Below, one piece after another: positions 8,622-59,056 of a stretch of 64,000 nt of DNA. The notes below the pieces were generated by a model, which did not search any database, had not been told where the DNA came from, and saw only the letters and a program-made list of their open reading frames with translations. Origin of the DNA: Zymoseptoria tritici IPO323 (Eukaryota; Ascomycota; Dothideomycetes; Mycosphaerellales; Mycosphaerellaceae); contig NC_018202.1 of assembly GCF_000219625.1 (NCBI RefSeq), positions 310,001-374,000 on the forward strand, in the 5' to 3' direction. The translations under genes were made by a program, and so were the position numbers. Each line of letters starts with the position of its first letter. Position 1 is the first letter of the stretch.

Positions 8622-9704
8622 TCATTCTCCTCTCTTACTTTTCCTAGACAGCGACTTTACTTCTTTAGCATCCGGGGCCATACAACAGGTTGACCTTCCG
8701 ACCGGGAAGAGTCTTGGTGAGATGTATTCCGACAAAGCTTGAAGTTCCATCTCTGAGAAGAACAACGACTGTATGAGCTCCAGGACGAAGTTCGTCTCGT
8801 CTTCCAGTCGATCCATGCATTGCGAGAACATGAGGTGCTCCTTGGCTACCTTGCCGTCGTAATTTTTCTCTGCTGTCTGGATAAAGGCAACACCGATCTC
8901 ATGAAGTTGGACCAGCATCCAATCGGGGGAAGATCCGTATCCACGGCGATGTTGTTTTCATCCGCCTCGGCAAGTAGTCGGAAAGCTCTTCGCCAGACTT
9001 CCGGGATGACCTGTCCGCGGTGACATTGGTGCCCATGCAGGACTGCCTCAACAGTCACATAGGTTCGGCGCAGTCGCACGAGTTGCGCTGCAGCAGATTG
9101 TTCAAGGGGCGTTCGTGCTGCCACGCTCCAACGTCGGGATCAAATGGCTCGCGGTTCACAATCACAGTATTAGGCGGTGTTTGGTGCTTGGAGACGCAAG
9201 CTGCAGACCTCAATACCTGACCTAACATGGGGAGGTCTGTGGCACCATCGTTCGGGTCGTGAAGGAAGTATCTTCCATGTGGTCGATCCAAAACAGCCAA
9301 TATAAAGTCATTGTCCTGGTTCGAGACGTAGTAGACTGCCTCGGCCGCCGAGCGTTAGACTCCCCGTGCCGCCGAAGTCATAGATCCGTCGTCTAGAGCA
9401 TTCATTTGGAGATGTGGCCGGTGATCTTGGTATTGATATCAAGGAGCTTGATGAGCCAAGCGATAGCTCCTTTTTGGTGCGTGAAATCTCGTTGGCAAAT
9501 GACTTTCAGCAGGTGTGTAACGTCGTTGTTCGTAACGGAGAGTGGATGCGGTGGGCGAGCGACTTTCTCGGGACGACAGGACTGTTTGACGTGCGAGGCG
9601 GATGCACTGTGCCCGGGCTTGTGAGCGCGGTCTGCAGAAGTACTCAGAGTCAACGGGGCCGTAAACAGGAAAGACCCCGGGTTGGACTTCAGGCCAAGCG
9701 ACAA
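8622..9704 (-). pseudogene. Relic of a C48 (Ulp1-like) peptidase family protein
   Basis: Three registers in sequence give a C48-like core. About 9335-9080 encodes NDFILAVLDRPHGRYFLHDP, matching the usual strand pair in which HW-x-L-A-V is followed by an Asp; here DF replaces HW and the Asp is kept. The register then reaches NSCDCAEP, where the family has the catalytic DCG. One base later the frame shifts, and 9080-8925 continues as YVTVEAVLHG and VIPEVWRRAFRLLA, the helix expected after the cysteine. A further shift leads to 8918-8622 (VQLHEIGVAFIQTAEK). CTAAC followed by GGCAG at about 9336-9358 is a good intron 3' end just before the core. 9704-9402 probably encodes the preceding part. It is unlikely to make an active protein. 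Homology is judged by eye. Confidence 0.55.
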
Positions 9705-9883
9705 CGGAGAATGATCCGCAAGATGTGTGTTGCCTTTTGCCGCTGCTCGATCTCCGTCTCTTTATTGCTGTCTGCACTCCCGTGCTTGCGATCTGGTTGC
9801 ACATCTACGTTCTATGCGGATGTTACCAGTCCAGACGTGGGTTCTTTGTAATGCTTGACGTTTTGGAAGGTCCAACGAAATGA

Positions 9884-14844: not shown

Positions 14845-16224
14845 TTACGGAACCACCCGTGCGGCATCTGTAATGTTGTCCAGAATCTCTCGTCTGAGCC
14901 ACGGCCACCACACATCATCTGCCCACTTAATCAACACCCTCAGCCCAGCCACGACCTTACACGTCTCCAGCAAGCTCGTCGTACTCCCAATTAAGACCCC
15001 ATCGCTGTAGAATGTCGCCATGTTCTCTCCAGCTACGTCTTTGAAGCAGAGGAAATGCCATTCATGGCCCTGTACAAACAACAGCGGCATAACCGGTATT
15101 TCAACAATTCCAGCATCTGGACGGCCAAATTCTTTCAGCAGCTGCCGCAAGCGTGTGACCTGAGCCTGTGCCCAAGTCATGAGCTGCCGCATGCCGTCCG
15201 CTCTGCCTTCGCCTGGCAGCTTCGTCTCGATGCTTGCGACGATTGCGTCCAGCAGAAGGGGCGTGTAGTCCGTTTGGTTGAGGTGTATGTCGCGGGCTCC
15301 AAGGCGGCGCTTGATGTCGTCTGGCACCTTGAAGGTAAGGCAGAAGTCGACCTTGCGGGATTGGGAGGTGTCGGCGGGCACAGGTAGGAGTGCCGCAGGC
15401 ACGATCCTTGCAGTCGTGATATTGTCGAAACGGAAGTTGTGCCGAGCGCCGCGCAGAGAAGTGTTGAGCAGGGGATGGTGTACGGATGAATTCCAGGCCG
15501 GCTCGGACGCGAAGCGAATCATGTTCTCTCGGGCTTCCTCGACCAGTTCGCAGAGATGAGTTTTATCTGGCAAGAAGTCCACATGGTCGTTGGCGGGATC
15601 GTCTGCGCGGAACAGGGTTTGGAAATTTCGCTGATCTCGTTGATCACTGCCGCTTGTCAAAGCAGCTCGCCACTCAGGAGTGTTGGCTGCTCTTGGCAGG
15701 ATATCGACAGAGTCCTTGACTGAGTACATGAGTTCTGCCAAACTCCGCACATCCTCCGGAGCGCTTGTGAGATCTTCGGGGTTTACAAGCGAGGCCTGGG
15801 CAACCGGGTATTGTATGTTCATGCCGCGCAAAGCCATCTCTTTTTGAGGACTCTCTGATCGCCGACTCTTTTTGCTACCGGACGCCGTCGATGAGTGGGC
15901 GCTCGATTCGCTGTCAATGTGATCGCGTGCGCGCTTCGTCTGCCGGAAGTCCGGAGGCTCGGGAGCGTCACTCAACAGCGGGATCCGTGAAACTGGGCGC
16001 GGTGTCGTATCTGTGGTAGGTATGTCGAAGGGAGCGTCTCCGGGTGTTCCAACTTTCGCATTCGACGCTGCGCGGCGCTTCGGCGTGCCCATCTCGGCGT
16101 TGACGTCCATCTCGGCCAACGCCCGCTTGTGCTTCGCTGGGCTTGCGCAGTGGATGGCAGCGGCAGCAGAGCCAGTATGACGAGCAGCCTGATCTTCAAC
16201 CCAGCAGGATGTATATGAAGACAT
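14845..16224 (-). CDS. Fungal PD-(D/E)XK nuclease-like domain protein
   Basis: An intact 459-codon frame starts at an ATG. Residues 1-130 are a low-complexity region rich in Lys, Arg and Ser (KHKRALAEM, SGSKKSRRSESP) with likely nuclear signals. From about 145 onward the protein matches the fungal PD-(D/E)XK nuclease-like domain: EPAWNSSVHHPLL near 241, the conserved Asp293 in KVDFCL, the IETK motif (Glu333, Lys335) and Gln347 in the following helix, then LLFVQGHEWHFLCF near 381 and a WLR tail. All expected active-site residues are visible. The family is common in ascomycete genomes with unknown substrate. Related restriction-type folds cut or bind DNA, so a DNA transaction role is plausible but unproven. 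The upstream AT-hook gene is on the same strand, 430 bp away. It is undamaged, unlike most neighbours. Confidence 0.8.
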   Translation of the reverse strand: MSSYTSCWVEDQAARHTGSAAAAIHCASPAKHKRALAEMDVNAEMGTPKRRAASNAKVGTPGDAPFDIPTTDTTPRPVSRIPLLSDAPEPPDFRQTKRARDHIDSESSAHSSTASGSKKSRRSESPQKEMALRGMNIQYPVAQASLVNPEDLTSAPEDVRSLAELMYSVKDSVDILPRAANTPEWRAALTSGSDQRDQRNFQTLFRADDPANDHVDFLPDKTHLCELVEEARENMIRFASEPAWNSSVHHPLLNTSLRGARHNFRFDNITTARIVPAALLPVPADTSQSRKVDFCLTFKVPDDIKRRLGARDIHLNQTDYTPLLLDAIVASIETKLPGEGRADGMRQLMTWAQAQVTRLRQLLKEFGRPDAGIVEIPVMPLLFVQGHEWHFLCFKDVAGENMATFYSDGVLIGSTTSLLETCKVVAGLRVLIKWADDVWWPWLRREILDNITDAARVVP

Positions 16225-16292
16225 CCAGGAGGATTGGCGGCACTTTGGTCAGTTGTACGGGTGCAAATAGGTAGCCTTTGCGTAGCAGGAGC

Positions 16293-18711: not shown

Positions 18712-20034
18712 TCAGCGAGTCTGTTCCATCGGCGCAAGCAAGATGGAACTCGCAACCAACGACCTACCTTGGGGTCGTTGCCCAGTGTCCGTGTACAATG
18801 CCCTATTGTTTCGTGGGGACATGTAGATGCTGGGCTCCTCCGGTCTTTCGTCGGGCGTGATGGCTCTCGCTGCTCGCGTATCTCTAGCTTGGATGCCAAA
18901 GGAGGAGGACACTTAAGATTGCTCCAGCCTGACCTTGGCGTCGAGATACCTCCGCTGCTGTTTCTTGCGGACGAGGATCCGTAGTTCGTGCTTTGTAGGA
19001 TCCGGAGAGGAAATGTAGTACTTGTCGGCGTCGTCGGCATGCCTCCTTGCTCGCTTGTTGTTGCCCATTTCGCGCCGTGGTTGGTAAGGGTTCTGTAAGG
19101 GAGGGAGGGAGGGAGAGGTGGCCGAGGTCCCTAACGGTGTGAAAGTCCTGGATCTGCGGTAGAACAGTTGTTGGGCGCCGTGGAACATCTCGAACCCGGC
19201 CCTTGGTCGATCTTGTGTCGGTCTGGCGCCTCGCAGATGAGCCCTGCGGCGCCTCGTTAAATGTAGAAAGTGTCAAGAAGCGATGGTGGCACTCGAAGCT
19301 GGGTCGTTGAACATACCGAACTTCCGTTGAATGAGATTGATCGGCTCGCGCTTGGCATCAGATTTCGCATCCAGATATTTTTCCATCAACAGTACAATCT
19401 TCCGTCTGGTCGCATGTCGTTGGCTTGCATGTTGGTGTCCGTAGTATTCATTCCGTGGATCGACGAGCAGGCAGTTCGAGGAGGACTGTACGACGTTAGC
19501 ACAGGCCGAGAGATAAGACCTCAGCAATCTGTAGCATCTGCAGATCGATCTCATCATCATCATCATCATCACTGATCGTATATGCTGATGATATGAACTC
19601 CTTCCTCGTTCAGCGGAGTCCATGTTGGGGGAAGGCGTTCCCAGTCAATTGTGGTGCGGTACACGACGTTGTCACAAACCCGTCGTCTTCTACTCGATGT
19701 TGGATGGCAAGAGGACCTACGAGCGTACCCAGGCGTTTTGGGCAGCGTCCACACTTTGGCCGTCTCGATGAGATTCGATGAGCTTGAGCATCCATAGTCC
19801 GTCGTGTACCACACGATTGCGTCGTCGGCACCTGGAGCGGCTCGCAGCGTCTTGCACATGGCCTCGCCCATCGAAAGATGCTCGCGTGAGTGACCGGGAG
19901 GCATGCTCAAACTGCTGGTCCGGCGGAGAGACATTTTCGGAGTTGGGGGATTGGGCTCGCTGGGGAGCTGGTGTGTCTCGAGAGAATGCGGACATTGACG
20001 AGTCGGACTGGTGACGCCCCTGGAGACCGGACAT
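18712..20034 (-). pseudogene. Decayed gene in one minus-strand frame
   Basis: A single register carries several coding-like blocks. The best are VLLMEKYLDAKSDAKREP and LIQRKFGMFNDPASS (to 19273), then DDADKYYISSPDPTKHEL and KKQQRRYLDAKVRLEQS (to 18915), then PDERPEEPSIYMSPRNNR (to 18712). Between 19623 and 18712 only two stops interrupt it, a TGA at 19273 and a TAA at 18913. Upstream of 19623 several stops appear. The repeated YLDAK hints at an internal duplication. No family is recognised. An intron-containing gene cannot be excluded, but the TAA has no obvious splice sites around it. A short ATG trinucleotide run (about 19550-19571) lies inside. Confidence 0.35.
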
Positions 20035-20479
20035 GTTAGCGTGAGGAAAACACTCGGGGATGTTTCGGAGGCGTCGAGCATACCTTGTGTCTGCCGACTG
20101 CCGTCGGATTGCTATCTGTACCGTTCGTTGTCCGTGAGATTACCGGGGAGTTGTGCTCATCACATCTCTCCTCGGTGGTTCTTCGGTCTTCTCGGGCGGA
20201 TGTACGATAGCTTGAGGATCCAGCTGCGGCGAAGATGTAATAAGTACCGGACTCGTCTCCAAAGTCGAATTTCGCACGGCCAACACGGGCAAAGGAGACT
20301 CACCTTCTTGCTCCCAGCGCTTCCGGCATTATCACCATTACTATCGTCATCATCCTTCTGAGACGCCTCAATCCCACTCCCACTCGAGTATCAGAGTCTT
20401 CACCAGCGCTGCGCCTTTTGAGATTCTCGGCGAGATGTGGAGTGTAGCGACGTAGGATTGTGAGCCAGAGAGTCTCAAT

Positions 20480-21127
20480 TCAGACTGGGGAGTGGAAGTC
20501 GCCTGTGGTATTCTCTTCAATCCCGTCCGAGGGAAGGAGGATCTCGAAGCACGAGTCGAATGTGGGCGAAGATGCACCCGCAGTGACCAGCGAAAGTGAC
20601 GGCGCCGGTGTATGCCGAAAGGAAGACTTGTGAGCCAGAACTAAGCCGGCGAAGATGACCTCCGAGCCGGCGAACGTCTGTCTGGGATGGAGTCGATCGT
20701 GCTTTCGATTCAAAACCGAGGTGGTCGTGAGTGGTATCTTGCCGGGCGAAGTAGACGTTGCCAATTTCCTGCGGGTGTCTGGAAGTCGATGCGGCAAGTG
20801 CGGCTTGTTCGGAGGTGTTGCTGGCATACTCGTTGCTTTGAATCGACTGCGCTTGTCGGGACCGAGTGAGGCAGCTTGCTCGCAAGATTGCTTGTCCAGC
20901 ACCGGCAATGTAAATGGCTCGAGTGCCGTGTATCGGCACGTTGGTACAGCAACGTTCGAGCTCACAACGTGCAGCTCGAGGGCGGGAGTGCGAGTGTGCA
21001 AGGGCCAGCGATGCCGGACTGTCGAGGGCGCCTCGCTCGCTGGACTCGCAATATGATGGGAGACGGCAACATTCCTTGCTCTTCCAGCTTCTGCGGGCGA
21101 TGACGCGGCAATCAACTCTGGAGGCAA
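20480..21127 (-). CDS. Open frame without ATG, 215 codons
   Basis: Codon use looks coding (mostly G/C at third positions) across the whole frame, which ends at TGA. There is no in-frame ATG at its 5' end, so it would need an upstream exon or is truncated. The product is rich in Ser, Pro and Thr (TSMPATPPNKPHLPHRLP) with no hydrophobic or metal-binding segments and no recognised domain. Confidence 0.25.
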   Translation of the reverse strand: MPPELIAASSPAEAGRARNVAVSHHIASPASEAPSTVRHRWPLHTRTPALELHVVSSNVAVPTCRYTALEPFTLPVLDKQSCEQAASLGPDKRSRFKATSMPATPPNKPHLPHRLPDTRRKLATSTSPGKIPLTTTSVLNRKHDRLHPRQTFAGSEVIFAGLVLAHKSSFRHTPAPSLSLVTAGASSPTFDSCFEILLPSDGIEENTTGDFHSPV

Positions 21128-22424
21128 TTGTGCCTATCTCAATCACTTTGCGGAGAGTCCAACTCAGTACTTAACGTTGCCGGCCCGAAGCTTGCGGGTG
21201 GTCTGATGGCTTGGTGCAGACCGTTCGAGCGGGGAGCCAGTGGCCCGGTCGCCAAAGTTCCCAGTTCGTCGTGTATCTTTTCAAGAACTGATCGAATGGC
21301 AACCCTCGGAAATTGGCGGAAAGCGCCCGTAGCAGCACAATGGCGGAGCCACGTGCACTGGCTGGCATCTGGGCATTGAGCCGGTCGCTGTTCCAGTAGA
21401 TCCTGTCGAAATGCCAGCCTCTCGAACAGCCGCGGGTTCAGCGGTAGACATGTTATTTGAGCCTTTCCTAGCATGGCGAAGAAAGCAGAAGTGGTGTCCT
21501 CTTTTCGATCCTGTCAATCCGCGTGTAGTGGCTTGCAGGTTCCGCGGCTTTCGTTCTTGCGAGTCGATGCCAGGTTGGTAAATGATAAGCTCCGCTGATT
21601 ACCACCCTCGATCCAGCTGCAACCTTCTGGCCAAGCGAGACATTCGTGCCCTCGAAGAGTAGGAGCACGTTGCTCTTGCAATGCGTTTGGGCTGGCGGCT
21701 GCTGTGCGAAGATCGCGATTCACTCATTGTGCACCTCGCACATCCTGACGATGATGGTATGCTCAGCGTCGGCGGAGATAGATGGAGATGTTGTCAATCG
21801 ATGGTCTTCAAGACAGGGTGGATTCGCGAGGGAGACGGCGCTTCGGAGCGGTTGCTGCTGACTTGGGAGCGCCTCGGGTGTGGTGGCAGCGATGCGAGTG
21901 GCTGACTACGACGCGATGAACAGGCTCATGGTCAGCGAACGAGGTGCTAACCTCTCAAGACGGTTGGTCGTTCTACTTGTCAGCATCGGACTTCTGGCCA
22001 GAGTCGCTCGCTGTTGGAGAACCCATCCTGGAACCTGATGGTGTCCGCGTAACCGAGAGCATCGCTCAGCCGAAAATGATGCTGACGTCACAACTGGCAA
22101 AGCCGAGAGTGAAGTGAAGGTCAACTGTCACTGGCGAAGCCATAGAGCCTAAGAAGGAGTCGACTGAGACTGCGGAGACATTGCTGTGTATTTGGAGTTC
22201 CGTGACGAACTACATCGGTGTCAGTATATCGTCTTGTGTTGTTGACCTTCCTCGTTGTTGTACCTTCTGTCATCTGAGCGAGCTTCGCCGGCTCCATCTT
22301 CGTCTTGACGATTTTCGAAGCGACAATTTGACCGGTCGGTCTGCTGCCATCGTACCGTTCGGCGCGGTGACAGATAGCGAAGCTTCCCCTTCCCAGCGCT
22401 GGTCCTGTGGCATAGTTGACACCG
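21128..22424. other. No supported gene
   Basis: Mixed short frames on both strands with no motif. Nothing can be called. Confidence 0.3.
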
Positions 22425-23471
22425 CTAGGCTCGGTGACGATAGGCGGAGGCGGGTCGCAGAATCGATCGGGGAGGTTGCGGATCGGGCTGCACCCGGTTG
22501 GTCAATGAGAAAGCTGGAGACACCTTGGAGTTTTCATGACTCAGCCGGCGGCGGTGTTGTTTATGCTCTTGCTCTGCCATGCTCTTGCTCTGCCATGCTT
22601 TTGCTGACAGTTGGTGAACGGATGCCGCCGCTAGTGGTGGTGTCGGTGTCGGAGTCGATATCCAGCTCCACGCAGGCTGCGAGCGCCTGGGGATGTTGAG
22701 GGCTGGTGCGCTGCCGTGAGCGCAGGGTGCGAGGCTTCTGAGATTGCCGGTGGAGCGGCCGGTGGTGAGGAAGGAGACGATGAGGCGGCCGGTGCGATGG
22801 TCGGTGCGATGGTAGATGGTGTCGGTGGAGCTGTAGCTGCTGGACGGATCAAGTCGCCGTCGGATAACATCTGACCCTATCGTGGTGAAAGGAATGACGG
22901 CCTTGGCAACGAGCTGCTCTTCGAGCGCGGTCAACTGAGAGGTCAGCGATTCGAGCTGAGCCTTCAGTGTGGACGTGCGCCCAGTCCGTGAGGCACGAGA
23001 GCGACGAGGTCTTGGCGTTGGTGCCGGTGAAGGGATAGTGGACGGCTAAGCAGTCTCCGAAGGTGTTGGTGCCGGAGTTGTTGCTGCTGGCTCTCGCGAA
23101 CGTGCACGCCAGTCGTTGTTGTGGCATTGAATGTGGGAGCTGCTGTGACCGTGTTGTCGACAGCGGAAGCAGATGTTGAGCTTGATACATTGATCCTTCT
23201 GCTCTTGCGTGAGCGACTCGAAGTACCGCGCTTGCGGTGATGAGGCTTGAGCCGGCTGCGGTGATGCTGGTGGTGAGGGCGGAAGAGCCTGCGCTCGAGC
23301 AAGGCCAATCTTGTATCCACGCAACTCAGTCTCCAAGCTCTTGATGCGCTCATTTGCGCTGGCGAGCTCCTGCATGAGCTGCGCCTTGGATGGCATGTTG
23401 TATTGCCCTTGCGTTGCGAGGCACGGGACTTGCGGCATTGTTGTTGCTCGGAGTGGAGCCAGTGAGTCCAT
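22425..23471 (-). pseudogene. Gag-like zinc-knuckle protein relic
   Basis: The first 141 codons start at an ATG (23471). A helical stretch (LMQELASANERIKSLETEL) is followed by a Pro/Ala linker and a zinc knuckle, CFRCRQHGHSSSHIQC, spaced C-x2-C-x4-H-x6-C, close to the retroviral-type CCHC knuckle. A TAG then interrupts, but the same frame continues with a second helix (LKAQLESLTSQLTALEEQL). Near 22880 the coding signal moves to another frame with an Ala/Pro-rich stretch. Such proteins are typical of LTR-retrotransposon Gag or genes derived from it. No protease, reverse transcriptase or integrase motif and no LTR was found nearby, so it may be a solo relic or a former domesticated gene. Confidence 0.45.
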
Positions 23472-24743: not shown

Positions 24744-24789
24744 GATGGGAGTGGTATGTCGAATCCGCCAGGTCGATGCAGCTGCTCTG

Positions 24790-25808: not shown

Positions 25809-25817
25809 GCATCGATG

Positions 25818-31924: not shown

Positions 31925-32039
31925 GAAGCAGCCGAACTTCACCATACGACAACCTCCCGGAACAAGTGTCCATGAGCGAGAGTTCGCGAGGAGGTGTCTT
32001 GCTTCTCAAAGAGCAGCATTGGTAAGGAAGCGTGGGCTT
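31925..32039. repeat. 115-bp duplicate, copy 1
   Basis: A 115-bp segment is repeated 250 bp downstream (32175-32289) in the same orientation with only about three differences. It includes CTCCCGGAACAAGTGTCCA. Confidence 0.9.
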
Positions 32040-40463: not shown

Positions 40464-40881
40464 TTACTTGCGAAGTTTCCACAGGACGGATAAGTATATA
40501 TTCTCGGCAGACTCGAAAGCATACCAATGCAGCATCTCAACATACTCCTTCACCCACCTGCAGCTGAGGCTCATCGCTGCAGGGACACGTTGTGATGACA
40601 AGCAGAGACAGCGGCGGGGACGACCAACACCTTTCAAGGCATGTTTGATTTCCGCGACAGTTCTCTCAACACAGGTCACACTTTCAGACGTCATCCGAAG
40701 CCGACGCGGCCCACGACGATCCTGCAGCCAGTAACTGTGTTAGCCCCATCTTCGTGTTTGGCTCCCTGCATGACACTCCTTCGCTGTCATCGCACACTCC
40801 ATCCAGCGCCAGTTCTCGACGAGTTTCTTCCATGCTGCGGTCGAGGTCGCTCCGCATTTGTTGCAGGAGATCGAGCGCCAT
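40464..40881 (-). CDS. Small two-exon gene, about 113 codons (candidate)
   Basis: Exon 1 (40881-40798) starts at an ATG and encodes a charged helix (MALDLLQQMRSDLDRSMEET). The intron is 40797-40722 (76 bp, GTGTGC donor, CTAAC branch site, CTGCAG acceptor) and joins in phase 0. Exon 2 (40721-40464) encodes CVERTVAEIKHALKGVGRP and WVKEYVEMLHWYAFESAE before a stop. The branch site and phase match are good evidence. It overlaps the predicted end of the C48-like gene on the same strand, so it could instead be the true 3' end of that gene. The GTAAGA at 40468 may add a third exon. Confidence 0.4.
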
Positions 40882-43362
40882 TGCAGACTACTCCCCGTCG
40901 GCCCTTTCCCTCTTGTTCTTCCGCCCTGCGCTGAATACTCCGCATCCTTTCCCGCCACCCGGACCCGAGCTCAAGCTCAATCAGAGCAGCCATGGCGCCA
41001 CCAGATACCTCGCCCAGTCTGACCGCAGTCTCGCCAAGTTCCACAGTGCGATCAGACCTAGTCGGAAGTTGTCTACTCCGAAAAATCTCCTCGAGCAAAT
41101 CGTAGGTTGGCCGTTGACGTCTGAGATGCTTGCAATGACAGCTCAGCGCAACACGGCGTTCCTTTGCTAGTCTGCGAAAGTTCTTGATACACTCCGCAAT
41201 ATACGGCAGTAAGAGGGGCTCCGAGACAGACGGTGGGTGAGCAACATCCGGTAGGTGAATATTCGGTATAGCCGAAGATGCCACTTGGAGGCCACGATGC
41301 TTGGCGGCCAGCACGGTAGCAAAAACGCTTCGTACCACTGCAGGTTCGATCTGGATACCAGCGCTCGGGATCACGAAAATGCCGCAATTGATGCTGTCGT
41401 CTTGTTGTAGGCACCCTTTATCGATTTCGCATTGCTATGTTTCCGTCCGGGCGTCCCGTTTGCGATGCTCTGGTTCCGTTCGGTTGTCCAGCAGCTGACA
41501 AACGCTTCGGACCCGAGACTGCCATTGCGAACCTCTGTGAACCGCATCTCGAAGAGAGTCCAACACAGCAAAACTGCTGCGGGTCCGGTATAGGACCACG
41601 AGGGCCCAACGAGCTCCATCACACATCGGGAGAAGAAAGTTGGGTAAAGCGATTGGTTTGCATTTAGCCAATGGCTTGTAGCCACGAGCATCCTTAAGAT
41701 AAGACCCCTTCGAGCTCGCACAGTCCACAATGTGCCAGTCTGTGGGAACAAACATGCGCAGTAGCAGGTCGATCGTGCTGCTCTTGATCTCCTTTGCCGA
41801 CAGCAGGTTCTGCACGGCGTATTCGTATCCAAGCTGCGCCTGCGTAGGTGACGAGTCCTTGAGGCTTGACAGGTCCGCCTTCAGGTTTGAAACATCGACT
41901 GCCAACTGCTTGGATAAAATAGACTCATCGTGATAGGGTGGGTCTCGTGAATCCGTTGGAGTCGGAAACTGCACTGACAAGGCTGACGACTTTTGCTTGT
42001 CCTTGAGAAGCGATTTGCCAAGAGAAAAAGGATTGGCCCACCGTCTTGGGATGTGGATCTTCATCAACGACGAAGTCTAGACTGAATGAACTCGAGCGTT
42101 TGCTGCTTCGTGCATCCGTGGACCCAGCGTTGCCATCGCCCAAATGCTTGCGCTTGCGGCTGATCGACGGCGACGGAGAATGATCATCTTGCAGACCCGG
42201 AGGGCCGTGGCGACCTCGTTCGATGTCACGTTCGCTATCGCTGTCATTGCCATCTGGAAAGTAGTCCACCGGGTTGTCAGAGTCGTTGCCATCGTTGCTT
42301 CGGGATTTTTGACCCTGAAACCCGCCATCATGGTCGCCATAATCGACAGTGGAGTCTTGATCAGGAGGCTGTGCAGATTGAGAGCGTGCGACAGTTTTGG
42401 CACCAGACCTAGCAATCAAAAATTCACGCGTATTCGTTCCTGCATGTTCCGGCCCAAGGCTCTGTCCTGAGACCGTTTTCACTTGTTCAAATGCTCTACT
42501 GCCGGCTCCCACTGCAAGTCCGGTGCCATTGCGGTCTCCTTTCACTTGTCCAGATGCCCTGCTACCGGCTCTCACTGCAAGTCCGGTGCCATTGTGGTCT
42601 TCATGCTCTTGTCCAGATGCCCTGCTGCCGGCTCTCACTGCAAGTCCGGTGCCATCACTAGCCTCATCGTCTTCGTCTTTGTCTGGAAGGTCGTCCCTCA
42701 GGGCTGCGGTCTGGTCGTTCAGCAGGCCTTGAGCCGGGAGCCCTTCCGCTACAGCGGTGCAGTCTGACGGCTTGAAGCGCAAGACCTTCCTACCGGATCG
42801 CACCCCACGCTCTCTCCGTGTTCGAGCGATTTGCACGAGCGCCGGCAAAAAATGGTCGAGGTTGTAGCCCGGCTTTTGAACCTTGGCGAGATTGTTCACA
42901 AACTCTCGGGTCAGACCACCATGTCCAAGGCGACAAAGGCCTACCAGATCGAGCTTGGTCAAGGGAAGCCAAGCACAGCTGTCTGCTCGTTGATTGCGCG
43001 CATCGGGTGGGCTGAGGAGTGAGGCGATGGCGCTTCTGAGGTTGCCGTCCTGGTTGATGATGGCGGAGATCCAGCCATCAATGATGAAGACAGCGTCCTG
43101 GCGCGGGACTTGTTGAATACGCCCGAGGCGGAGGAGATCGTGACATGTCACGAATCGATCGTAGAGAGCGTAGTATTTGTTGATATAATTCTTCGTGATG
43201 GACTGTCTGTGGACTGACGTCTCCAGACATGTCCGCCGTGTTGAGGAGCTGTCGAGAGTCAGATTCAGTGGAGGTCTAGTTCTATCCAAGTGGGAGAGCA
43301 GGGCAAAAGCAAGCTCGATTGACGTAGTTCCAAGCTGAAGCCCACTCCAGTACCTCGATTAA
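40787..43362 (-). CDS. C48 (Ulp1-like) peptidase family protein, possibly disabled
   Basis: Frame one (open from 43362, no ATG visible) encodes a helical N-terminal region (TSIELAFALLSHLD, FVNNLAKVQKPG), three 21-residue repeats and an acidic basic-patch linker (SRKRKHLGDG). A 73-bp intron (42041-41969, GTGGGC to TGCAG) would lead in phase 0 to frame two, which carries the C48-like domain: ARWALVVLYRTRSSFAVLDS, where Arg stands for the usual His before Trp and the Asp is kept, then DDSINCGIFV with the expected Cys. Between them an in-frame TAG (41437-41435) must be read as nonsense or removed by a 69-bp GT-AG intron (41503-41435). The tail has a coiled-coil-like helix. C48 enzymes remove SUMO or related tags. 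Without His this one may be inactive. Confidence 0.6.
42481..42669 (-). repeat. Three in-frame 63-bp repeats
   Basis: Three copies of 63 bp (21 codons) inside the C48-like gene encode NGTGLAVRAGSRASGQ with small changes. They separate the N-terminal region from the acidic linker. Confidence 0.9.
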
Positions 43363-44175: not shown

Positions 44176-44281
44176 GGACTCGATCTGTGGCAAGATTGCT
44201 CCATGTAACCAACTCCACACAGTATGATGCTGTCCGTTTTCCGGCCGCATCATCACAGCGGACATCTCTCGGCCCTCGGAA

Positions 44282-44764
44282 GTGATCAACGGACATATCC
44301 AGTATTGCGTTGGTGTGGAGAACATGGCGGACGAGCTCCTCTCCTTCGGCAGAGGAGGTTTCGAAGCCGCACTGGCCATACGACACGCGTACGACACATA
44401 CAAGCTGGTACTGCGGACGGATCCAGGCCCAAGGCGAGATTGCAAGTCAATGAAGCGTTTCGAACGGAGAAGCTTTGAGAACAACGTAGTAACCATACAG
44501 GAGGTGAATACACTCCCCGGTATAACGTTCAACATCAGCACCGCCGAGCGAACCCAGCCACCCTTAGCCAGCGACTGGAAACTTGGCTCCTCTCTCTCTC
44601 TCTCTCGCTCCGCCAAAAGCGAACGCCCAACCGAACGCAAGCCCGACACGACCCCAGCGATCACGAACGGACACCTCGCTGCTGTTAGAGACGAAACGGG
44701 ACTTCTTCGACCCGAATCTGCCGCAGCGAGCTGGATAGAGGTGATATCCAGCTCCAACAACTAG
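44282..44764 (+). CDS. Hypothetical coding frame, 160 codons
   Basis: The frame reads ISRPSEVINGHIQYCVGVEN, then FGRGGFEAALAIRHAYDTYK and FENNVVTIQEVNTLPGITFN, followed by a Ser/Pro-rich tail. Composition is coding-like, but there is no ATG at its start and the upstream register differs. It may be an exon of the gene starting at 43487. No domain is recognised. Confidence 0.3.
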   Translation: MINGHIQYCVGVENMADELLSFGRGGFEAALAIRHAYDTYKLVLRTDPGPRRDCKSMKRFERRSFENNVVTIQEVNTLPGITFNISTAERTQPPLASDWKLGSSLSLSRSAKSERPTERKPDTTPAITNGHLAAVRDETGLLRPESAAASWIEVISSSNN

Positions 44765-50560: not shown

Positions 50561-50713
50561 GGAATGTCGTTTAGGAATGTCGTTCTGAAATGTCGTTCTG
50601 CAATGTCGTTCTGCAATGCCGTTCTGAAATGCCGTTCTGAAACGTCGTTCTGAAATGTCATTCAGGAATGTCGTTCTGAAATGTCGTTCTGAAATGTCAT
50701 TCTGAAATGACGC
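50561..50713. repeat. 13-bp tandem array, about 12 units (cluster A)
   Basis: Eleven full units and one partial unit of GAAATGTCGTTCT follow each other without gaps. Variants are GGAATGTCGTTCT, GCAATGCCGTTCT and GAAATGTCATTCT. Related motifs recur at 52.4, 55.36 and 55.53 kb. Confidence 0.95.
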
Positions 50714-51495: not shown

Positions 51496-53084
51496 TACAT
51501 ACCTGGTTTTGGCGCAACCAACAAGCATAAGAAGAGGAGGCAGAGGAAAGCAGTGACTTGGATATTCTGGTAGGAGAATGCCGGAACTCTGCGGCCAGAC
51601 GACTCGACAATTGCAAGGAGGCTGAGTTTGCATACATACACAAGGCGCCAAAAAGACGGATCAAAGAAGCATTAAGGCCGCAAGACCGCACAGCTGGGAG
51701 GCATGTCCAAAGCAACCAGGCGCAGGCTTTGGCTACGTTTCATCTGTCCGGTGGCCAGCTGCATAGGTGTATAAGTTTCGTCCACGCAGGCATACGCAGG
51801 GACGTGGAGTTTCGCCATCAAGAGTCGGGCGTATGAGCGAATTGGCGCATGAGCAGTCCAGACTGACGTTTTAGAATTCGGAGCGAGACAGACCAATCGA
51901 AGAACGACTGCAGGGATTCAGGCAACGAGACTCTTCCATCGAGAAGAACCTCCAACAACATGCGAGCTCAGGCGCGAATCATTTGAGAGGCCACATGCTT
52001 CGGCATAGTTGTTTGGAAGGTCGCTCCCCATGCCGCGCACCAAAGCTCGGCGTGGTATTCCTGACGATGGAGTGGGGCAGGATCAGGTTTAACAGCTTAA
52101 CACTAATGGTATCTTCATGTTTCTGCTCCAAACCAAAGTCTAATCCGTCACTGCCTCTAAGTCCAATCCGTCGGAAGATGACAGCTTCAGCGATGGAGAC
52201 AGGTAAAAGTGATGTGGTTGGGCGGAGAGACTGCCTTGCTGAGATGTTGAATTCTGTACGCCGCGGCTACGATCGAATGCATAGCAGGGAGAGTGATGAA
52301 CGATCGCCGCGATTGGTCAACGAGCGGAGTCAAGGGAGAGTAATTGTTTATGTTGCGTATAAGATGGGTGGCGTGGGAGTAGTCAGGGTAAGTCGCGTAT
52401 GTCTGAAATGACATTCCTGAACGACATTCCTGGTTAAAATGTCGTTCAAGAACGACATTCCTGTTTGTTCCTCTCATCCAACACTAACAACCTTATAGAT
52501 ACTACTCTCTAAAATATATGTTTACATAACGACCCGGACCTGTTACAGAGCAGTGGTAAAAAGGCGTAACCTCGTCGTAGCATAATACAATACCTCGCCG
52601 CCGAAAATGCACCACGGGGGAGCCTTAGGCCACCAGATCCTGGTGCGGCTGGCTCGGCTGCAGATTAAGGTACACGCATCGCCACGATTGCCTACATATC
52701 GTGGCTTCGCGTCTTCCTTCATCGTCCTGGTCATTGACATTGACAGCCCGCACGTCCGCAACTGGCGGTCTATGGCGATGAAGGTAGGTGGCTTGTAGTA
52801 CCCATCCCCGTGTAAGTGTCGATGAATTCATTTCTTCTCACACAGTCGGGGCATGTTGGTGTACAAAAGCGAGAATTCCCCTCATGGTAGGGTATTCCAT
52901 TATGTCCGCGTCCCATCAGCTAGTGAGGTGGGAGTCACGAGAATCTGAAGGGAAGGAGCAGAGGAAGTCACGGCGCCCTTTCTCGAACTTCTCCTCGTCA
53001 TACACGACTCCAACCTCACTTTCATAATTTCCTCACTGGCCCTTGAAGATTTCTTTCATCACTCCCCAATTCTCCTCTTCCGCA
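51496..53084. other. No certain gene; contains 13-bp cluster B
   Basis: Weak frames only, such as a 92-codon plus frame at 51558-51836 and one at 52607-52798. The leader of the gene at 53085 is pyrimidine-rich (CTCACTTTCATAATTTCC). Confidence 0.35.
52404..52462. repeat. 13-bp motif cluster B, mixed orientation
   Basis: Three reverse-orientation motifs (one AATGACATTC and two AACGACATTC) surround one forward AATGTCGTT. A reverse motif at 52420 and the forward motif at 52439 form an inverted pair able to fold back. Confidence 0.85.
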
Positions 53085-55058
53085 ATGCCGAACAAGAGAC
53101 GCCGGCTTGGGCCGAAACCGACCGATGATGACAAGGCGCTTCTGGACAATTTCTACAATGACAGCGCCGCCGGCCAACGCCGCCGCACACAAAACGATCT
53201 GGACCAAATCCGTGCCGCGCTCGAACGCTCCGACCGAACGGTGACCGAGGCTACGACGGTGAAGCGGCGGGCGTTGGAGAAGGGAAGATGGCAACTACGA
53301 ATCGAGGATCTTTTTGCCAACTTTGGCGACAAGTACAAGAGCGAGAGATTCCTTGTGGAGCTGTACAAGGCAGAAAAGACGGTAAGGCGGGGTGCAGGAT
53401 TCAAGGCGTTTCGGGCGGCAATTCAGCAAGCGGCGGAGGCAAGGAAACTGGACCGCGCAAAGGTGGTCTACACACCTGCAGATGTCTCTGATGCCGCGTG
53501 CTCGATGGCGAGTAAAGAGGGAGATGGCTTAGACGAGAACGACCAGGACCTCAAGGAGGACGACGAAGAAGAAGATGCAGACGGCGAAGACAAGTACAAC
53601 CAGGACAAACAGGACGACGAGAGCGGCGAGCTGTACAAGGATGGAAAGCTGGACAAGGATGAAGAGCTGGCCAAGAATGAAGAGCTGGACAAGAACGAGG
53701 AGCTTGGAAAGGACGAAGATCTCTCCATGGAAATTGAGAAAGCAAGAGGCGTGGACCACAACGTATCGGATGATCCGTCTGGGACTTCATACCGAGACTG
53801 GGACATGTGTGACAGCAACGACGACAACGACGACGACGACGACATGGCCTTGCTCGAGCATTTCAACACCGGCGGCAGCTTCGTGCACTCATTGGTAAAA
53901 GGTGAAGTTTCGGGCACGTCGGGCGTGTCAGGCGTGTTGGGCTTTTCCAACGAACCCCGCGTCATCCCGATGAAAGAATTCGAAGATTTTTTGAACGGTC
54001 GTCGAAGCAACATCAACTCGAAAGCCAGCATTCTCGAAGCCATCTCCACCAGCGATATCTTGACCAGCAATCCATCCTACAACCACACATCGCTCAGCAT
54101 GCTTATGACGGATGTGGATCTTGACATCGCCCGACAGTCTCTGCTCACCAGCAACGACTTCACCGCCGCAGCTCTGAACACCATTCTGGGCACATTCCGA
54201 CCGCTTACTTGGTACATCCATCCGCCTTGTACGTTGCAAGATGGCCAGCTGGTACCCGACGGACAACACCCTCCTACGAGCAGACACGACCTTCTCCTGC
54301 CGGTTCACGTCGCCACCAACCATCAGCAGCAATGGTGCCTAGCCTTTCTCCGGAGACGCTCCGCCACGGAATTCTACCTCTCGATCCCTGGATTTTCGCA
54401 AGAGGATAAAGAAGCAGCGACCGAGGTCGAAGGAGCGGTGCGACAATGGTGCGAGACGTGGAAGGACGACACCAAATCCGTCAGCGTCATCATCCCGCCA
54501 GCAGTACTCGACACGGACTTGAACACTTCCCATTCCCTGCTCCTGCGGGCGATTCTTGCCATGGCCGAAGTACCCCTCTGCACACCCTTCGATCGCGACA
54601 CTGGCCGTGTTATCCTCCAGCGAATCCTCTCTGAGATGTCACCACATGGCACCGCTGCGAAACCCGAGCCAGCCAAATTCGCCGTCGTCGAAGACTACCC
54701 CAACTTGAGCGACGCCGTCACCCCCGAGCATTCCAAGGGCATGGTACAGCAATTTCTGGACAGGGTACGGCCCGCCTGCGACAACTTTGACAGGAGGCAT
54801 GCTGCAGTGCACGCTGTCCGGACCGCACTAGCTACCACGCGAGATGGGGTGCAGCTGACTATTTCGCTGCAATGGGCACCTGCTGGGATCAATGCAAGCG
54901 TTCTCGAAGCCATCAAAGTCGTAGCTGGGGATGGGGAGGACAGGGTCAAGGTCATGAACAGGCTGATTCAAGGGCTCGACGAATTGCTGGCGTGCATGCG
55001 GGCGGACAATGCGTTGCTCAGGAAGCATGTCGAGAAGGGTATGGTATATGTAGCGTGA
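53085..55058 (+). CDS. C48 (Ulp1-like) family protein without catalytic residues
   Basis: An intact 657-codon frame from an ATG in CGCAATGCC context to TGA. The frame is open a little further upstream but without an ATG. The start has a basic nuclear-type patch (NKRRRLGPKP). A helical region follows (FLVELYKAEKTVRRG, AIQQAAEARKLDRAKVVYTP) that resembles the same region of the gene at 41-43 kb. Residues about 144-255 are an acidic linker with six-residue repeats (KDEELAKNEELDKNEEL). Residues about 345-510 form a C48-like domain: DLLLPVHVATNHQQQWCLAF, then EFYLS where Asp is expected, and NTSHSLLLRAIL where NCG is expected. His, Asp and Cys are therefore all absent from their places. The tail is helical. 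It is probably a nuclear, non-catalytic protein that could still bind a SUMO-like partner. Confidence 0.7.
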   Translation: MPNKRRRLGPKPTDDDKALLDNFYNDSAAGQRRRTQNDLDQIRAALERSDRTVTEATTVKRRALEKGRWQLRIEDLFANFGDKYKSERFLVELYKAEKTVRRGAGFKAFRAAIQQAAEARKLDRAKVVYTPADVSDAACSMASKEGDGLDENDQDLKEDDEEEDADGEDKYNQDKQDDESGELYKDGKLDKDEELAKNEELDKNEELGKDEDLSMEIEKARGVDHNVSDDPSGTSYRDWDMCDSNDDNDDDDDMALLEHFNTGGSFVHSLVKGEVSGTSGVSGVLGFSNEPRVIPMKEFEDFLNGRRSNINSKASILEAISTSDILTSNPSYNHTSLSMLMTDVDLDIARQSLLTSNDFTAAALNTILGTFRPLTWYIHPPCTLQDGQLVPDGQHPPTSRHDLLLPVHVATNHQQQWCLAFLRRRSATEFYLSIPGFSQEDKEAATEVEGAVRQWCETWKDDTKSVSVIIPPAVLDTDLNTSHSLLLRAILAMAEVPLCTPFDRDTGRVILQRILSEMSPHGTAAKPEPAKFAVVEDYPNLSDAVTPEHSKGMVQQFLDRVRPACDNFDRRHAAVHAVRTALATTRDGVQLTISLQWAPAGINASVLEAIKVVAGDGEDRVKVMNRLIQGLDELLACMRADNALLRKHVEKGMVYVA

Positions 55059-55356: not shown

Positions 55357-55410
55357 GGAATGGCGTTCAGAACGACATTCCGAAATGTCGTTTTGAAAAC
55401 GACATTCTAG
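55357..55410. repeat. 13-bp motif cluster C, inverted pairs
   Basis: GGAATGGCGTTC faces AACGACATTC, and CGAAATGTCGTTTT faces GAAAACGACATTC. The two back-to-back pairs could form hairpins. It lies 300 bp after the stop codon of the gene at 53085-55058. Confidence 0.9.
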
Positions 55411-55524
55411 CCTGCTGCGGGTTGGCACATCCGACGGATCACCGCTGGTTGTAATCCGAGTCCCTGCTATATCCCAGCCTTACAAGGAGCGGTGGCTACC
55501 CCGGTGTGGCCCGTTATATATACA

Positions 55525-55595
55525 GGAATAGCGTTCCAAAAACGACATTTCGGAACGTCGTGTCAGAACGACATTCTGGAACGACGTTCTGAACG
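55525..55595. repeat. 13-bp motif cluster D
   Basis: Contains GGAATAGCGTTCC, AACGACATTT, CGGAACGTCG, AACGACATTC and AACGACGTTC. Most units are in reverse orientation relative to cluster A. Confidence 0.85.
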
Positions 55596-57203
55596 ATGGT
55601 ATACTGGCGTACATTTATAACTCTGCTGGCTTGAAGACGTGACTTGAGCCTTAGCGATGAGTTCGACTGATGCTCGGGATGCTCTGCAATTGCATTGGTT
55701 GCTGAACTCCCTGTCGGTAGCTTGGAGTAAATGGTAATGCCTGGGCCTGAGGTGGTGAGATGTGTCATCGCCGGACCGCAACACTCCACACCTCCGTCAC
55801 GTTTCTAACAATACACCACTCACTACTCACCACCTACCGATTCTCTAGACTCTGGATACAGTGCGCGGCTTTCCGACTCCAACTTGGCAAAATCTAGAAG
55901 ACTCGCGACATTGCCTTCCATGATCTGGCCTTCTCCTCAGTCTGCATCGACCAGACCAACACCAATAACGACCTCCGCATACATTCGCCGCATGAAGCAG
56001 GACTTCCCGTCATTGAGCGCGCGTACGAAGAGGAAGAGGCTGAGCCACTTGAGAAGAGGGAGCAGAGGACAACACACGAAGCACAGGCGACGACTATGAT
56101 GAGAAGGCCTTTCCTTGGGACAAAGTGCCACACTCGCGAATCGAGCCAAAGAAAGACGGTGAATTCGAAATGATCGATCTGGTGGTCATGCAGGTGGCGG
56201 AGAATGAGGCCTTGTGACTCCGGCGCAGAGGACGGACAGCTACAGAGGTCATGGATAGAGCGATCGGTCGTGATGAGGTCGTGCCAGCTCACCTCCTTTG
56301 TCGTCCAACACTCCGCTCCGAGTGCCGGAATATCTGCGTATTGCCAACTCCGCAGCAGTCAAATCCGATCTCCGCCACGCCTCGACAAGCTCTTCAAGCA
56401 TTCTCTGCCTCGGCACTCAGCACTGAAGCCATGCAAGCCGTGTACAAGTCCTCCCTGCACGACTATCGCAACTCCACAAGGCACATATTGGACGCCATTT
56501 CACCCAGACGTGAGATTGACGATACCACTTGCTGCTCATGCTCCCAATACCAACCAACAGATTCCATCAACAAATGAACCTCCGCCGGCCTGAGACCAAC
56601 CCATCGCACCAACTCCTCGCGCTTGTTCCGCTTCGCCTCACACCTCTGGCCGACCCATGCAATGGCTGCTCTTCGCAATGACTCGAGAGAACGATTCCGC
56701 CGACCAACAGACCGAACACCTCGACCTTGCCGCCATGTAACACTCCTACCTTCTCGCGCCATATGAGCCATCATGCCAACAACAACAGCTCGCGCGACCA
56801 GATCGCTTCGACCAGCATCGGCCCGCCCTCGTCTTAGGAATACAAGGATTGCGCCCTGGATGCTCAGCCTCCACCTCACTCTACTACACCGCACCACCCG
56901 TCGTCACAGACCCCTTCCGCCAATGCGGGCATGTCGCGTGTGTGAAGGAGCTGGATAGACAAACAGCACCGCCTTTGAGGAAGTGATCCATCAGCAACAT
57001 GTTTGCGATAAGGGCATTGGATACGGCACGCTATTTTGAGTGGCGCGATGTGTCTGAAGACGTTGCGCCCGAGATGCCCAGGGAGCCCATCGACCGACCA
57101 CCAAGCGAAAGGTGGACATCGACCTAGACGCTTTGAGCAGACCGAGGCGCCGACAAGCTTCGTAATCACGGCAGCCGACAAGTCCGTAAAGTCACGTTAC
57201 GGT
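55596..57203. other. No supported gene
   Basis: Short frames without motifs. The part from 55880 to 56900 has open frames on both strands, none convincing. Confidence 0.3.
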
Positions 57204-59056
57204 ACTGTACCAGATTCCAATCAAAGCGAGAAAGAAATACTCGGTTCTGCAGCACGAGGAAGATCTCTCAAGTCGCGGTGCAGATCTGGCAACCCACCAT
57301 GGCGCCGCTCAGTGGTTGTCCCATTCCGCTTTACATCCGTGCCCAGAACTTCGGCTTGTTCATCACTCGCAACAATGCAAGAGTCAATTTCGACTGATTT
57401 TGGGACCTTCGCCATCATCAGCGCTGTACGAGGTAGGCTGTTACGCACAGTCTCCGGGTCGCCATCCCACTCGACATCACGAACGCCAGCCCGAATGCTC
57501 CCTCAAGCCGGACCCGGGAATGCAAGTCCAAACTTACTACAGCGGCCGCACGTACGACGGAGACAGCGATACAACCAGCCCGCCGGCCTTTTCAAAACGT
57601 TCCTTTGGAGGCATCTCCGGGTGTCGCAGAGTGCACGATGTCAGGATTGACTGTCATTTCTGTTCATACAGGTCGGCATTGTCTTGTCAAGCGATCACCT
57701 CGCCGGGCATGATCTCCACAATCAACCTCCGCTTATCAAGGTGCTCAGTGTCACCTTCGGCAAGCGCAGTCGGGAGGTCAAACTCAGCATGGTTTCCGTG
57801 GTCTCCTTCGGCGTCACGAAAGCCCAGCAAGAGAACGGTCTTCACTTAGCTTTGGCATAAGATCTGCAGGACTTTCAACATTCTTGCCTCGATTCGTGAA
57901 GTTGCGTTTGCGCCTCTTGCTTCTCTGGAGCAAAAATCGACCACTGAAGCTTTGCTGAGATTGGTCGACGATACCGGTCACAACATGCTCCTGCAGAAGA
58001 CCTCGCCGCCAGCAGCTAGAGTCGGCCGCTGAAATTCCCTCTCCTGTTTCGTCGAGCCTTGACGACACAATGGCAAAGTGAGCCACCGCATCCTGTCCAA
58101 TCGATGGTCCACCGTGCAGCACATGGAGAAGCATGTTCGAGGCGTCGACTTCATCCTTTGGGAAGCTCAATCCACCAATCTTTCCCTCCTTCAAACCTGT
58201 CGTCCTCCAGCGCACTGACGAAGTATGGCGACAAGCTCTTCATTGGACTTTCTGCGCGGCGTATACCGGCTGAGAGTAGTATTCGCCAATGGTGATCTTG
58301 ATAAGCGCTGCGAGAGTGATTGAAGTGTTCTGGCATCGCATTGGCGGATGAAACTCGGCCCGAGGTAGGTGACAAGATGACTGTCAGACTCATGATCAGC
58401 ATTCACGGCGATGAGGTGTCTACGACAGTCGATTGCAGTCTTGGCGGAATTGCTCGGCGCAGCCTCCGCGACCCACACATCCGCGATAGGGCAGCTACAT
58501 GGAAGACACTTGGATGTACTGAGACTACCAAAAGCTCGGCTTCATCACCCACGAAAGAGACACTTTGCGCGGCCAAGCTCCCGCAACCACGCCACCGATG
58601 TCATAGCTGGAAGCGCAAGGCGACACGATTTGTCTGCTTGACGAACTCGAACTCGTACTGGATCCATCCTCCAAGTCAGCCAAGTCGGCCGATTCAGGTA
58701 CCGTCACCAAGTCGACGGAAACCCAGATCACCGGTACCTCGACCCAGGCCGCCCAGCACGCGGACATTCTTCTCCTGGCACTGGCGCCACCAACAAGTTT
58801 CAAAGCCACCATCGAAGGTCCATCGACTTGCATTGAGCGTGCAACACTGCTCACCGACCGACTTCTGTCCACGTTTTCCAAATATACCGCTGACAAACCT
58901 AGCCGCCTTTGCACGCCATACCCTTCGCCTGGAGCGCAGCTCCGCACCCGCCAAACGCCGGATACCCTCGCGCCGAATGTGTACCAACGCCTGTCAGTCC
59001 GCTCTAAAGGCGCCGCCGATCGCATCCGACCAGCACCAAGTCTCCGCAGTTTCTGA
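57204..59056 (+). pseudogene. Relic of a C48 (Ulp1-like) family protein, several exons
   Basis: Near 57260-57385 one frame reads KISQVAVQIWQPTMAPLSG, then CPIPLYIRAQNFGLFITRNN and ARVNFD before a TGA. This matches the C48 strand pair, with NF where HW is expected and an Asp in place. The next register gives DFGTFAIISAVRGRLL. A likely intron end (TTGAC, pyrimidines, CATACAG at about 57671) precedes VGIVLSSDHLAGHDLHNQ, where the helix after the Cys would be; the Cys itself is not clearly present. A separate exon, 58607-59056 after a TCATAG acceptor, encodes LEAQGDTICLLDELELVLDP and ATLLTDRLLSTFSKYTADK and ends at TGA. Frame changes and stops make an active product unlikely. Confidence 0.4.

Follow-up and report, generated by a model that had tools for sequence, protein, structure and literature searches.

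How dispensable fungal chromosomes are retained and over-transmitted is an open question, according to the available text of PMC9508043. The window analysed here, a stretch of 64,000 nucleotides, is part of one such chromosome, accessory chromosome 17 of Zymoseptoria tritici. A first-pass annotation proposed that it contains five paralogues related to the SUMO protease Ulp1 (Peptidase C48), mostly relics, from a family multiplying either by host birth-and-death or as cargo of a mobile element. We asked how many of these copies are real, what the proteins are, how the family has spread, and whether it may contribute to the persistence of the chromosomes that carry it.

Family copies in the window

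Three of the five proposed copies are real family members, at 9.06-9.35 kb (minus strand), 40.8-43.4 kb (minus strand) and 53.1-55.1 kb (plus strand):

8972..9354, minus strand: C48-domain relic with its main piece at 9058-9354 (phmmer, tblastn, genome search, alignment)
40790..43358, minus strand: interrupted family gene (PF02902, match to C17:558k, N-terminal profile, alignment)
53085..55058, plus strand: intact group B gene of 657 codons (isolate identity, match to C16:486k, N-terminal profile, hhalign)

The 9-kb copy lies at 9058-9354, not in the frame at 8622-8957 in which it had been placed. Its closest relative is the first C48 domain of C17:265k, a family member with two C48 domains, which it matches in phmmer at 2e-7 (over 1602 six-frame pieces). 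The relic was also recovered by tblastn (6e-8, plus a short second piece at 8972-9010) and in the genome search (1.4e-4). According to the alignment, it has Asp at the position of the catalytic His and retains the Asp, Gln and Cys; the frame stops just past the Cys.

The 41-43-kb gene, proposed correctly, is made up of an N-terminal exon (41928-43358), the front half of the C48 domain (within 41438-42076) and the Cys half (within 40790-41434); between these pieces there is a single in-frame stop and the frame changes once. The alignment places an Arg at the catalytic His position. The gene matches PF02902 at 8.7e-4 (23.3 bits; cut-off, 20.7), C17:558k at 6.7e-20, and an N-terminal profile built without rows from the window at 3.8e-5.

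The 53-kb copy also belongs to the family, but as an intact gene rather than a relic. Its protein is identical to P0003 of another isolate at 635 of 657 positions (97%), with 22 differences and no gaps. The gene encodes an N-terminal domain, an acidic linker, a C48-like domain (about 54141-54644) and C-terminal helices. It matches C16:486k at 4.3e-57, and it is tied to the family through its N-terminal domain (9.9e-22 to a profile holding no window rows). The tie through the C48-like domain is weaker: hhalign against group A gave P values of 1.3e-4 over 144 columns and 9.4e-4 over 150 columns, the His, Asp and Cys are missing at the aligned places, and there is no Pfam C48 match. Both AlphaFold models that we obtained were of low confidence, and that of the 53-kb gene was unusable. 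The helix pattern FVNNLAKVQK/FLVELYKAEK, reported as common to the 41- and 53-kb genes, does recur, and falls within the shared N-terminal domain.

The two other proposed copies, at 48.6-49 kb (minus strand) and 57-59 kb (plus strand), found no support: there was no phmmer match at E ≤ 1 and no tblastn match below E 1, and four profiles found nothing with E values of up to 2. The sensitive tblastn search was controlled with the reversed window and the four-profile search with reversed pieces. Ten ORF pieces from the regions of the proposed copies gave no C48 match when scanned singly against Pfam. Measured against the annotation's own criterion, by which matches of one or two copies to C48 would count against it, PF02902 alone matches one of the copies and the group A C48 profile matches two weakly (0.011 and 0.03), although the pairwise matches are strong.

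Some further weak matches in the window were not accepted. A possible N-terminal relic at 44155-44760 (minus strand) matched one N-terminal exon at 0.0013 and a second at 0.21, but did not match the profile of the N-terminal exons, and the reversed control reached 0.011. The tblastn matches at 30.1-30.2 kb (0.050) and 26.5 kb (0.084) compare with a best reversed-window match of 0.085.

Domain architecture of the family

An N-terminal helical domain, probably a coiled-coil, is common to three groups of family members, which we call A, B and C. In a leave-one-out test, the profile of the remaining sequences found seven of eight N-terminal domains at 7.5e-5 or better; the exception was C17:264k (2.3). 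A profile search also located the domain upstream of the group C genes on chromosomes 18, 14 and 20. The domain has no Pfam match.

The C-terminal domain of group A is a Peptidase C48 domain by sequence similarity. The group A profile matched Ulp1 (1euv) at 1.1e-11 and 6dg4 at 2.8e-17, and SENP1 and SENP2 were matched too. PF02902 scored above its cut-off at four places on the accessory chromosomes, among them the 41-kb copy, C17:87k and C21:277k; no Pfam C48 match was obtained for C17:265k, P0002 or the members of groups B and C. The full His/Asp/Gln/Cys set is present in three of the four open-frame group A domains (C17:87k, C21:277k and the first domain of C17:265k), and is incomplete in the second domain of C17:265k as well as in the 41-kb copy and the 9-kb relic. 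Group A resembles the Ulp1/SENP enzymes (PF02902, Peptidase C48) in its catalytic-domain profile and in the positions of His, Asp, Gln and Cys. The family differs from them in its shared N-terminal domain lacking a Pfam match, its member with two C48 domains, its groups without the catalytic set, and its accessory location. The C48 genes of the core chromosomes are distant, the best match being C9:916k at 1.4e-5 in a small search.

Group B is probably C48-like with the His, Asp and Cys lost, a link that rests on the P value of 1.3e-4. Outside the N-terminal domain, profile comparisons matched group C to neither group A nor group B. A classification of group C as C48 was rejected, given these failed comparisons and the missing Pfam match; the group is kept in the family because its N-terminal domain alone matches.

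Spread and decay on the accessory chromosomes

Searches of the fungus's own genome found 23 family places at E ≤ 1e-3, spread over all eight accessory chromosomes (14 to 21), and no core match at this threshold with any family query. The accessory chromosomes hold 49 of the 53 matches to seven family queries, and the four core matches all have E > 0.05. The idea of a multiplying C48-related family was therefore right, and on a larger scale than one window could reveal. The copies are approximately 20-50% identical to each other and represent every state of decay.

Of the two modes of spread that had been suggested, birth-and-death fits better, because of the low identity, the full range of decay states, the absence of RIP marks (all 17 family stretches examined lacked the signal) and the flanks, which for seven of the nine genes tested were no more similar than shuffled sequence. 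Judged on sequence, the family is probably old and fast-diverging, evolving by birth and death and comprising deSUMOylase-like proteins as well as pseudo-enzymes; duplication within the accessory set would produce copies that then decay singly.

The alternative, that the copies spread as transposon genes or inside a transposon, draws on the local density noted by the first-pass annotation and on arrays of the word AAYGWCRTT on either side of group B genes. In the window, arrays of this word lie at three places:

50563..50709, no strand: 13-bp tandem array with the word AAYGWCRTT, 11.3 copies (Tandem Repeats Finder, word scan)
52407..52461, no strand: four-word AAYGWCRTT array, ~620 bases upstream of the start codon of the 53-kb gene
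55359..55595, no strand: two more AAYGWCRTT groups, from 300 bases past its stop codon

Such arrays flank the two intact group B genes on both sides. Genome-wide, the exact inverted pair of the word was found twice, each time next to the 53-kb gene (the arrays at 52407..52461 and 55359..55595). However, the group B genes also have elevated scores when their flanks are compared in direct orientation, and the arrays are therefore not necessarily terminal repeats. No pair of copies was seen to share DNA on both sides; together with the missing RIP signal, this led us to reject a recent RIP-hit transposon. The copies are also too dissimilar for a recent burst. Near-identical copies, shared flanks or terminal repeats, and RIP marks, by which recent transposon cargo would be recognised, were not found, with the group B pair and its arrays as a possible exception. 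We regard transposon cargo as very unlikely for the family as a whole, while keeping it in play for group B.

A further rival is neutral decay, with accessory genes copied by chance, without present function and all heading to loss. Interrupted copies are indeed many (for example C17:193k, C15:69k, C19:213k and C20:58k), and broken copies occur in the control families as well (see below). Against this, six members (C17:87k, C21:277k, C17:265k, C17:363k, C16:486k and C18:216k) have long open frames despite being only 20-50% identical to their nearest relatives, and the 53-kb protein differs from its counterpart in another isolate without a single gap. Neutral decay seems unlikely to us.

Proposed function and possible role in chromosome persistence

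The members with a full catalytic set (C17:87k, C21:277k and the first domain of C17:265k) most likely strip SUMO or a similar tag from fungal proteins, and we infer that the N- and C-terminal helices would pick the protein partner. The 53-kb gene and the rest of group B probably encode pseudo-enzymes, and group C may do so too, depending on the nature of its C-terminal part; having kept the targeting parts, such proteins could bind the partners of the active members or block them.

A role of the family in the persistence or drive of accessory chromosomes is possible and unproven. In yeast, loss of Ulp2 reportedly produces disomic cells, and locally encoded SUMO-protease-like proteins might alter SUMO-dependent cohesion, replication or segregation such that accessory chromosomes are kept or over-transmitted. 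It fits this proposal that each of the eight accessory chromosomes has at least one family place, and that the meiotic drive of these same chromosomes has no known mechanism, factors encoded on them being sought (PMC9508043, available text). On the other hand, the members are highly unequal, many are relics, and their role is predicted from sequence. The confinement to accessory chromosomes looked striking as a sign of function until three control accessory genes proved almost equally confined (4 of 4, 17 of 18 and 14 of 14 matches on the accessory set); it is thus not special to the SUMO-protease-like family. We consider such a service to the chromosome unlikely, about on a par with neutral decay.

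That accessory chromosomes of other fungi carry Ulp1 genes is already in print. The available text of the respective papers places Ulp1 genes on AC23 of P. nodorum (PMC8146201) and, in Colletotrichum graminicola and C. lentis, on minichromosomes (PMC10779208), and these, too, lend the proposal some support. As in Z. tritici, Ulp1-type genes lie on dispensable chromosomes and some are duplicated, but one or two are named per chromosome, compared with our 23 places, and the comparison covers gene type and location. None of these genes was among the matches returned in a family search. In C. graminicola, removal of one Ulp1 gene left growth and virulence unimpaired (PMC10779208, available text). 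Among the matches listed in the open-licence literature, none describes a SUMO-protease-like family on the accessory chromosomes of Z. tritici; the accessible part of the genome paper names other expanded peptidase families (PMC3111534). A general rule is less likely still, though not as improbable as transposon cargo. Under it, fungal accessory chromosomes would time and again come to carry Ulp1-like genes and amplify them, since these aid persistence; in Z. tritici, an active and a pseudo-enzyme set, with members of the family on every accessory chromosome, would adjust SUMO at the nuclear edge, at centromeres or at sites of replication and so confer a transmission advantage. The family is a testable candidate for how dispensable chromosomes persist, although other genes there are similarly confined, and the short list of intact genes now named enables a direct test of the SUMO route.

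Finally, the family and the three controls, four kinds of accessory query in all, each proved to be a multigene family confined, or nearly so, to the accessory set. In the available text of PMC4502367, by contrast, 79.3% of accessory genes are counted as orphans. Small as a sample of four queries is, the finding suggests that the eight accessory chromosomes draw on a single old gene pool that they share.

A C48-like family in the window and on the accessory chromosomes

The first-pass annotation had proposed five C48/Ulp1-like copies in the window, at 9, 41-43, 48.6-49, 53-55 and 57-59 kb. Three of the five were recovered (9, 41-43 and 53-55 kb); at 48.6-49 and 57-59 kb nothing matched in phmmer, sensitive tblastn or profile searches. 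The following matches were obtained when family members were used as phmmer queries against 1602 six-frame pieces of the window:

9058-9354, minus strand, phmmer match
within 40790-43358, minus strand, phmmer match in several pieces
53028-55055, plus strand, phmmer match
44155-44760, minus strand, weak extra phmmer piece (0.0013) resembling the N-terminal domain of C17:531k (contig number and approximate kb position, as for all such labels below)

The weak piece sits upstream of the 41-kb gene on the same strand. It was not accepted as an N-terminal copy: a second N-terminal exon as query gave 0.21, the profile found nothing and the reversed control reached 0.011. Sensitive tblastn recovered the same three strong places; further matches at 30.1-30.2 kb (0.050) and 26.5 kb (0.084) were taken as background, the best match in the reversed window being 0.085. 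Profiles built without window rows also put the same places on top, the C48 profile scoring the 41-kb pieces at 0.011 each and the 9-kb piece at 0.03, and the N-terminal profile giving 9.9e-22 at 53 kb and 3.8e-5 at 41 kb. When 10 open reading frame pieces of the named regions were searched singly against Pfam, none had a C48 match. A genome search with PF02902 found nine places, one each on C6, C7, C8, C9, C10 and C21 and three on C17, among them the 41-kb copy (C17:351333-351635).

Our genome searches covered 21 contigs (39,686,251 bases); the window corresponds to positions 310001-374000 of contig 17. Eight of the 21 chromosomes of the reference isolate IPO323 are accessory, according to the available text of PMC13059725, and are numbered 14-21 in that of PMC4502367; to judge by the number and sizes of the contigs, the contig numbers used here presumably equal the printed chromosome numbers. 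Seven protein queries and PF02902 identified at least 23 distinct family places at E <= 1e-3, not counting five core C48 genes:

Family places by contig
C14: 669k, 724k
C15: 69k, 370k
C16: 314k, 486k
C17: 87k, 137k, 142k, 193k, 264k, 319k, 351k, 363k, 530k, 558k
C18: 216k
C19: 213k, 247k, 332k
C20: 58k, 275k
C21: 277k

C17:558k enters through PF02902 only, C19:159k (0.30) is not in the count, and C17:137k and C17:142k may be a single interrupted gene. Family counts are lower bounds, because only the best candidates get scored. Among the matches listed for the seven queries, 49 of 53 are on C14-C21, and the remaining four are on core contigs (E 0.083, 0.134, 0.236 and 1.26). In a small search of core pieces only, the profile of group A (members with the C48 domain) matched C9:916k at 1.4e-5 and C7:1541k at 0.0015; the core C48 genes are distant relatives. 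The family is real, larger than had been claimed, and located on accessory chromosomes in this genome.

Isolate 3D1 of Zymoseptoria tritici has a protein that matches C17:87k, a gene on the same contig as the window, with 100% identity. We searched 5.8 billion proteins with the whole of C17:87k, its C48 and C-terminal part, and the C-terminal two thirds of the 53-kb protein; among the matches listed, only Z. tritici proteins appeared (P0001, P0002 and P0003). Relatives may escape these searches, as they rely on shared five-letter words and two of the three scored only ~8,000 candidates. P0002 comes from isolate 1E4; it shares 37% identity with its query and ~35% with its top match in the fetched loci, so copies vary between isolates.

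Domain architecture and the three groups

The domain order is an N-terminal domain, an acidic low-complexity linker, a C-terminal domain and further helices. Leave-one-out profiles, for which all rows had been aligned jointly before one was removed, recovered seven of eight N-terminal domains at 7.5e-5 or better; that of C17:264k was not recovered by the profile of the other seven (2.3). The all-eight profile also finds the domain upstream of the C19:247k relic (7.4e-5) and of group C genes on C18 (1.8e-13), C14 (4.9e-6) and C20 (9.3e-5). In the AlphaFold model of C17:87k the N-terminal helices are fairly confident (block means 59-86, residues 41-190) and the rest is poor (mean 47.8); that of the 53-kb protein, with a mean of 34.2, is too poor to be used.

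The group A profile (11 C48 pieces, the window's included) matched the solved SUMO proteases 6dg4 (2.8e-17), Ulp1 (1euv, 1.1e-11), SENP2 (7.9e-11) and SENP1 (2.4e-10); single group A proteins matched 1euv more weakly (0.0062 and 0.0015). In the alignment, the full His/Asp/Gln/Cys set is present in C17:87k, C21:277k and the first domain of C17:265k, whose second domain retains neither Asp nor Cys. In the 41-kb copy Arg stands in place of His, and a stop separates its halves. C17:558k and C19:247k are interrupted by stops. Introns might remove any of these stops, that of the 41-kb copy included.

Group B comprises C48-like members such as the 53-kb gene and C16:486k, which are 41% identical in the C48-like part. 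It aligned with the group A domain in hhalign (P 1.3e-4 over 144 columns; 9.4e-4 over 150 columns), and His, Asp and Cys are absent from both genes in this alignment. The simplest reading of these sequences is that group B is a putative pseudo-enzyme. A relic can be ruled out for the 53-kb gene, because isolate 3D1 has a gapless 657-residue counterpart with 635 identical residues.

Group C shares a common C-terminal region (C17:530k, C18:216k, C17:137k, C20:58k and C14:669k; shorter in C14:724k and C16:314k), which had no match to groups A and B in profile comparisons. The N-terminal domain, found in four members (C17:530k, C14:669k and those on C18 and C20), is what makes group C part of the family. 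Within the C48 kind the family is a variant marked by an N-terminal architecture of its own, by a member with two domains and by a group lacking the catalytic set.

Confinement and Ulp1 genes on dispensable chromosomes

Three other accessory-contig genes, chosen as long open reading frames, served as control queries, self matches being counted:

window 14848-16248, minus strand, PDDEXK_12 gene, 467-residue frame, nuclease superfamily (PF20516, 8.8e-62)
window 4059-5834, plus strand, 592-residue open frame, no Pfam family above cut-off, relatives form a family
fetched locus L034 2350-3945, minus strand, 532-residue open frame (C21:274k), no Pfam family above cut-off, another accessory family

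All four listed matches (E <= 0.01) of the PDDEXK_12 gene were on accessory contigs (C17, C18 and C19), as were 17 of 18 for the 592-residue frame (E <= 1; the other on C8) and 14 of 14 for the 532-residue frame (E <= 0.01). The controls being nearly as confined, confinement is usual for accessory genes and, taken alone, is no sign that the C48 family has a chromosome-related task; the pattern suggests that the eight accessory chromosomes share one old gene pool.

Published cases of Ulp1 on such chromosomes were taken from the available text of two papers. Two Ulp1 genes lie on AC23 of P. nodorum, and the authors of PMC8146201 bring up SMT3, MIF2 and the stability of mini-chromosomes. Of the 25 shared genes on C. 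graminicola chromosome 11, Ulp1 is described as the sole one whose function is known, and one strain has a paralogue in tandem; a sentrin/SUMO-specific protease lies on chromosome 12 of the other strain, and Ulp1 also on C. lentis chromosome 12 (PMC10779208). When one of the C. graminicola Ulp1 genes was lost, that paper reports no defect in growth or virulence. In Z. tritici, accessory chromosomes show female-parent-linked drive, whose mechanism the available text of PMC9508043 calls unclear. This recurrence of genes described as Ulp1, in two papers found by looking for this very connection, is the strongest external argument for a possible chromosome-related role; genes of Ulp1 type may also be nothing more than a frequent component of dispensable DNA. 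We regard a chromosome-service role as a testable reading, and an improbable one.

Flanking sequences and mobile elements

The first-pass annotation had considered cargo of a mobile element. The window and 13 family loci, compared at the DNA level, showed no pair of copies with shared DNA on both gene flanks, and the RIP index was negative in all 17 family stretches. Inverted flank scores were no higher than in 60 shuffles for seven of nine genes, the exceptions being the two intact group B genes (33 vs 26 and 44 vs 29). Each of these has AAYGWCRTT arrays on both sides, mostly with 13-14-bp spacing, and none inside the gene. An exact inverted pair of the word occurs twice in the genome, each time next to the 53-kb gene. 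The arrays might be terminal inverted repeats, but this is only one option, because the direct flank scores are likewise raised (36 and 40); boundary or regulatory arrays are the others. Degenerate arrays are present in other loci as well.

AAYGWCRTT arrays
window: 50563-50709; 52407-52461; 55359-55595
L032 (fetched locus, as are the next two): 121-148; 4592-4639; 7543-7591; 8564-8598; 9546-9594
L040: 3141-3351
L031: 6011-6117

The word is palindrome-prone, often 13-bp spaced, and lies near group B genes and some relics. Upstream of C17:264k (L030 769-1007), a 39-bp near-palindromic unit occurs in inverted order, 161 bases apart and 79% complementary. The C17:193k relic is adjoined by C17:194k (L031 8235-8681, minus strand), a broken helicase C-terminal piece (PF00271, 9.3e-5, 23.1 bits, just below cut-off) that we take to resemble the terminal part of a protein of SNF2 type. 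Finally, window positions 20001-32000 have a GC skew of 0.155 to 0.223 over three 4-kb blocks and many short open frames.
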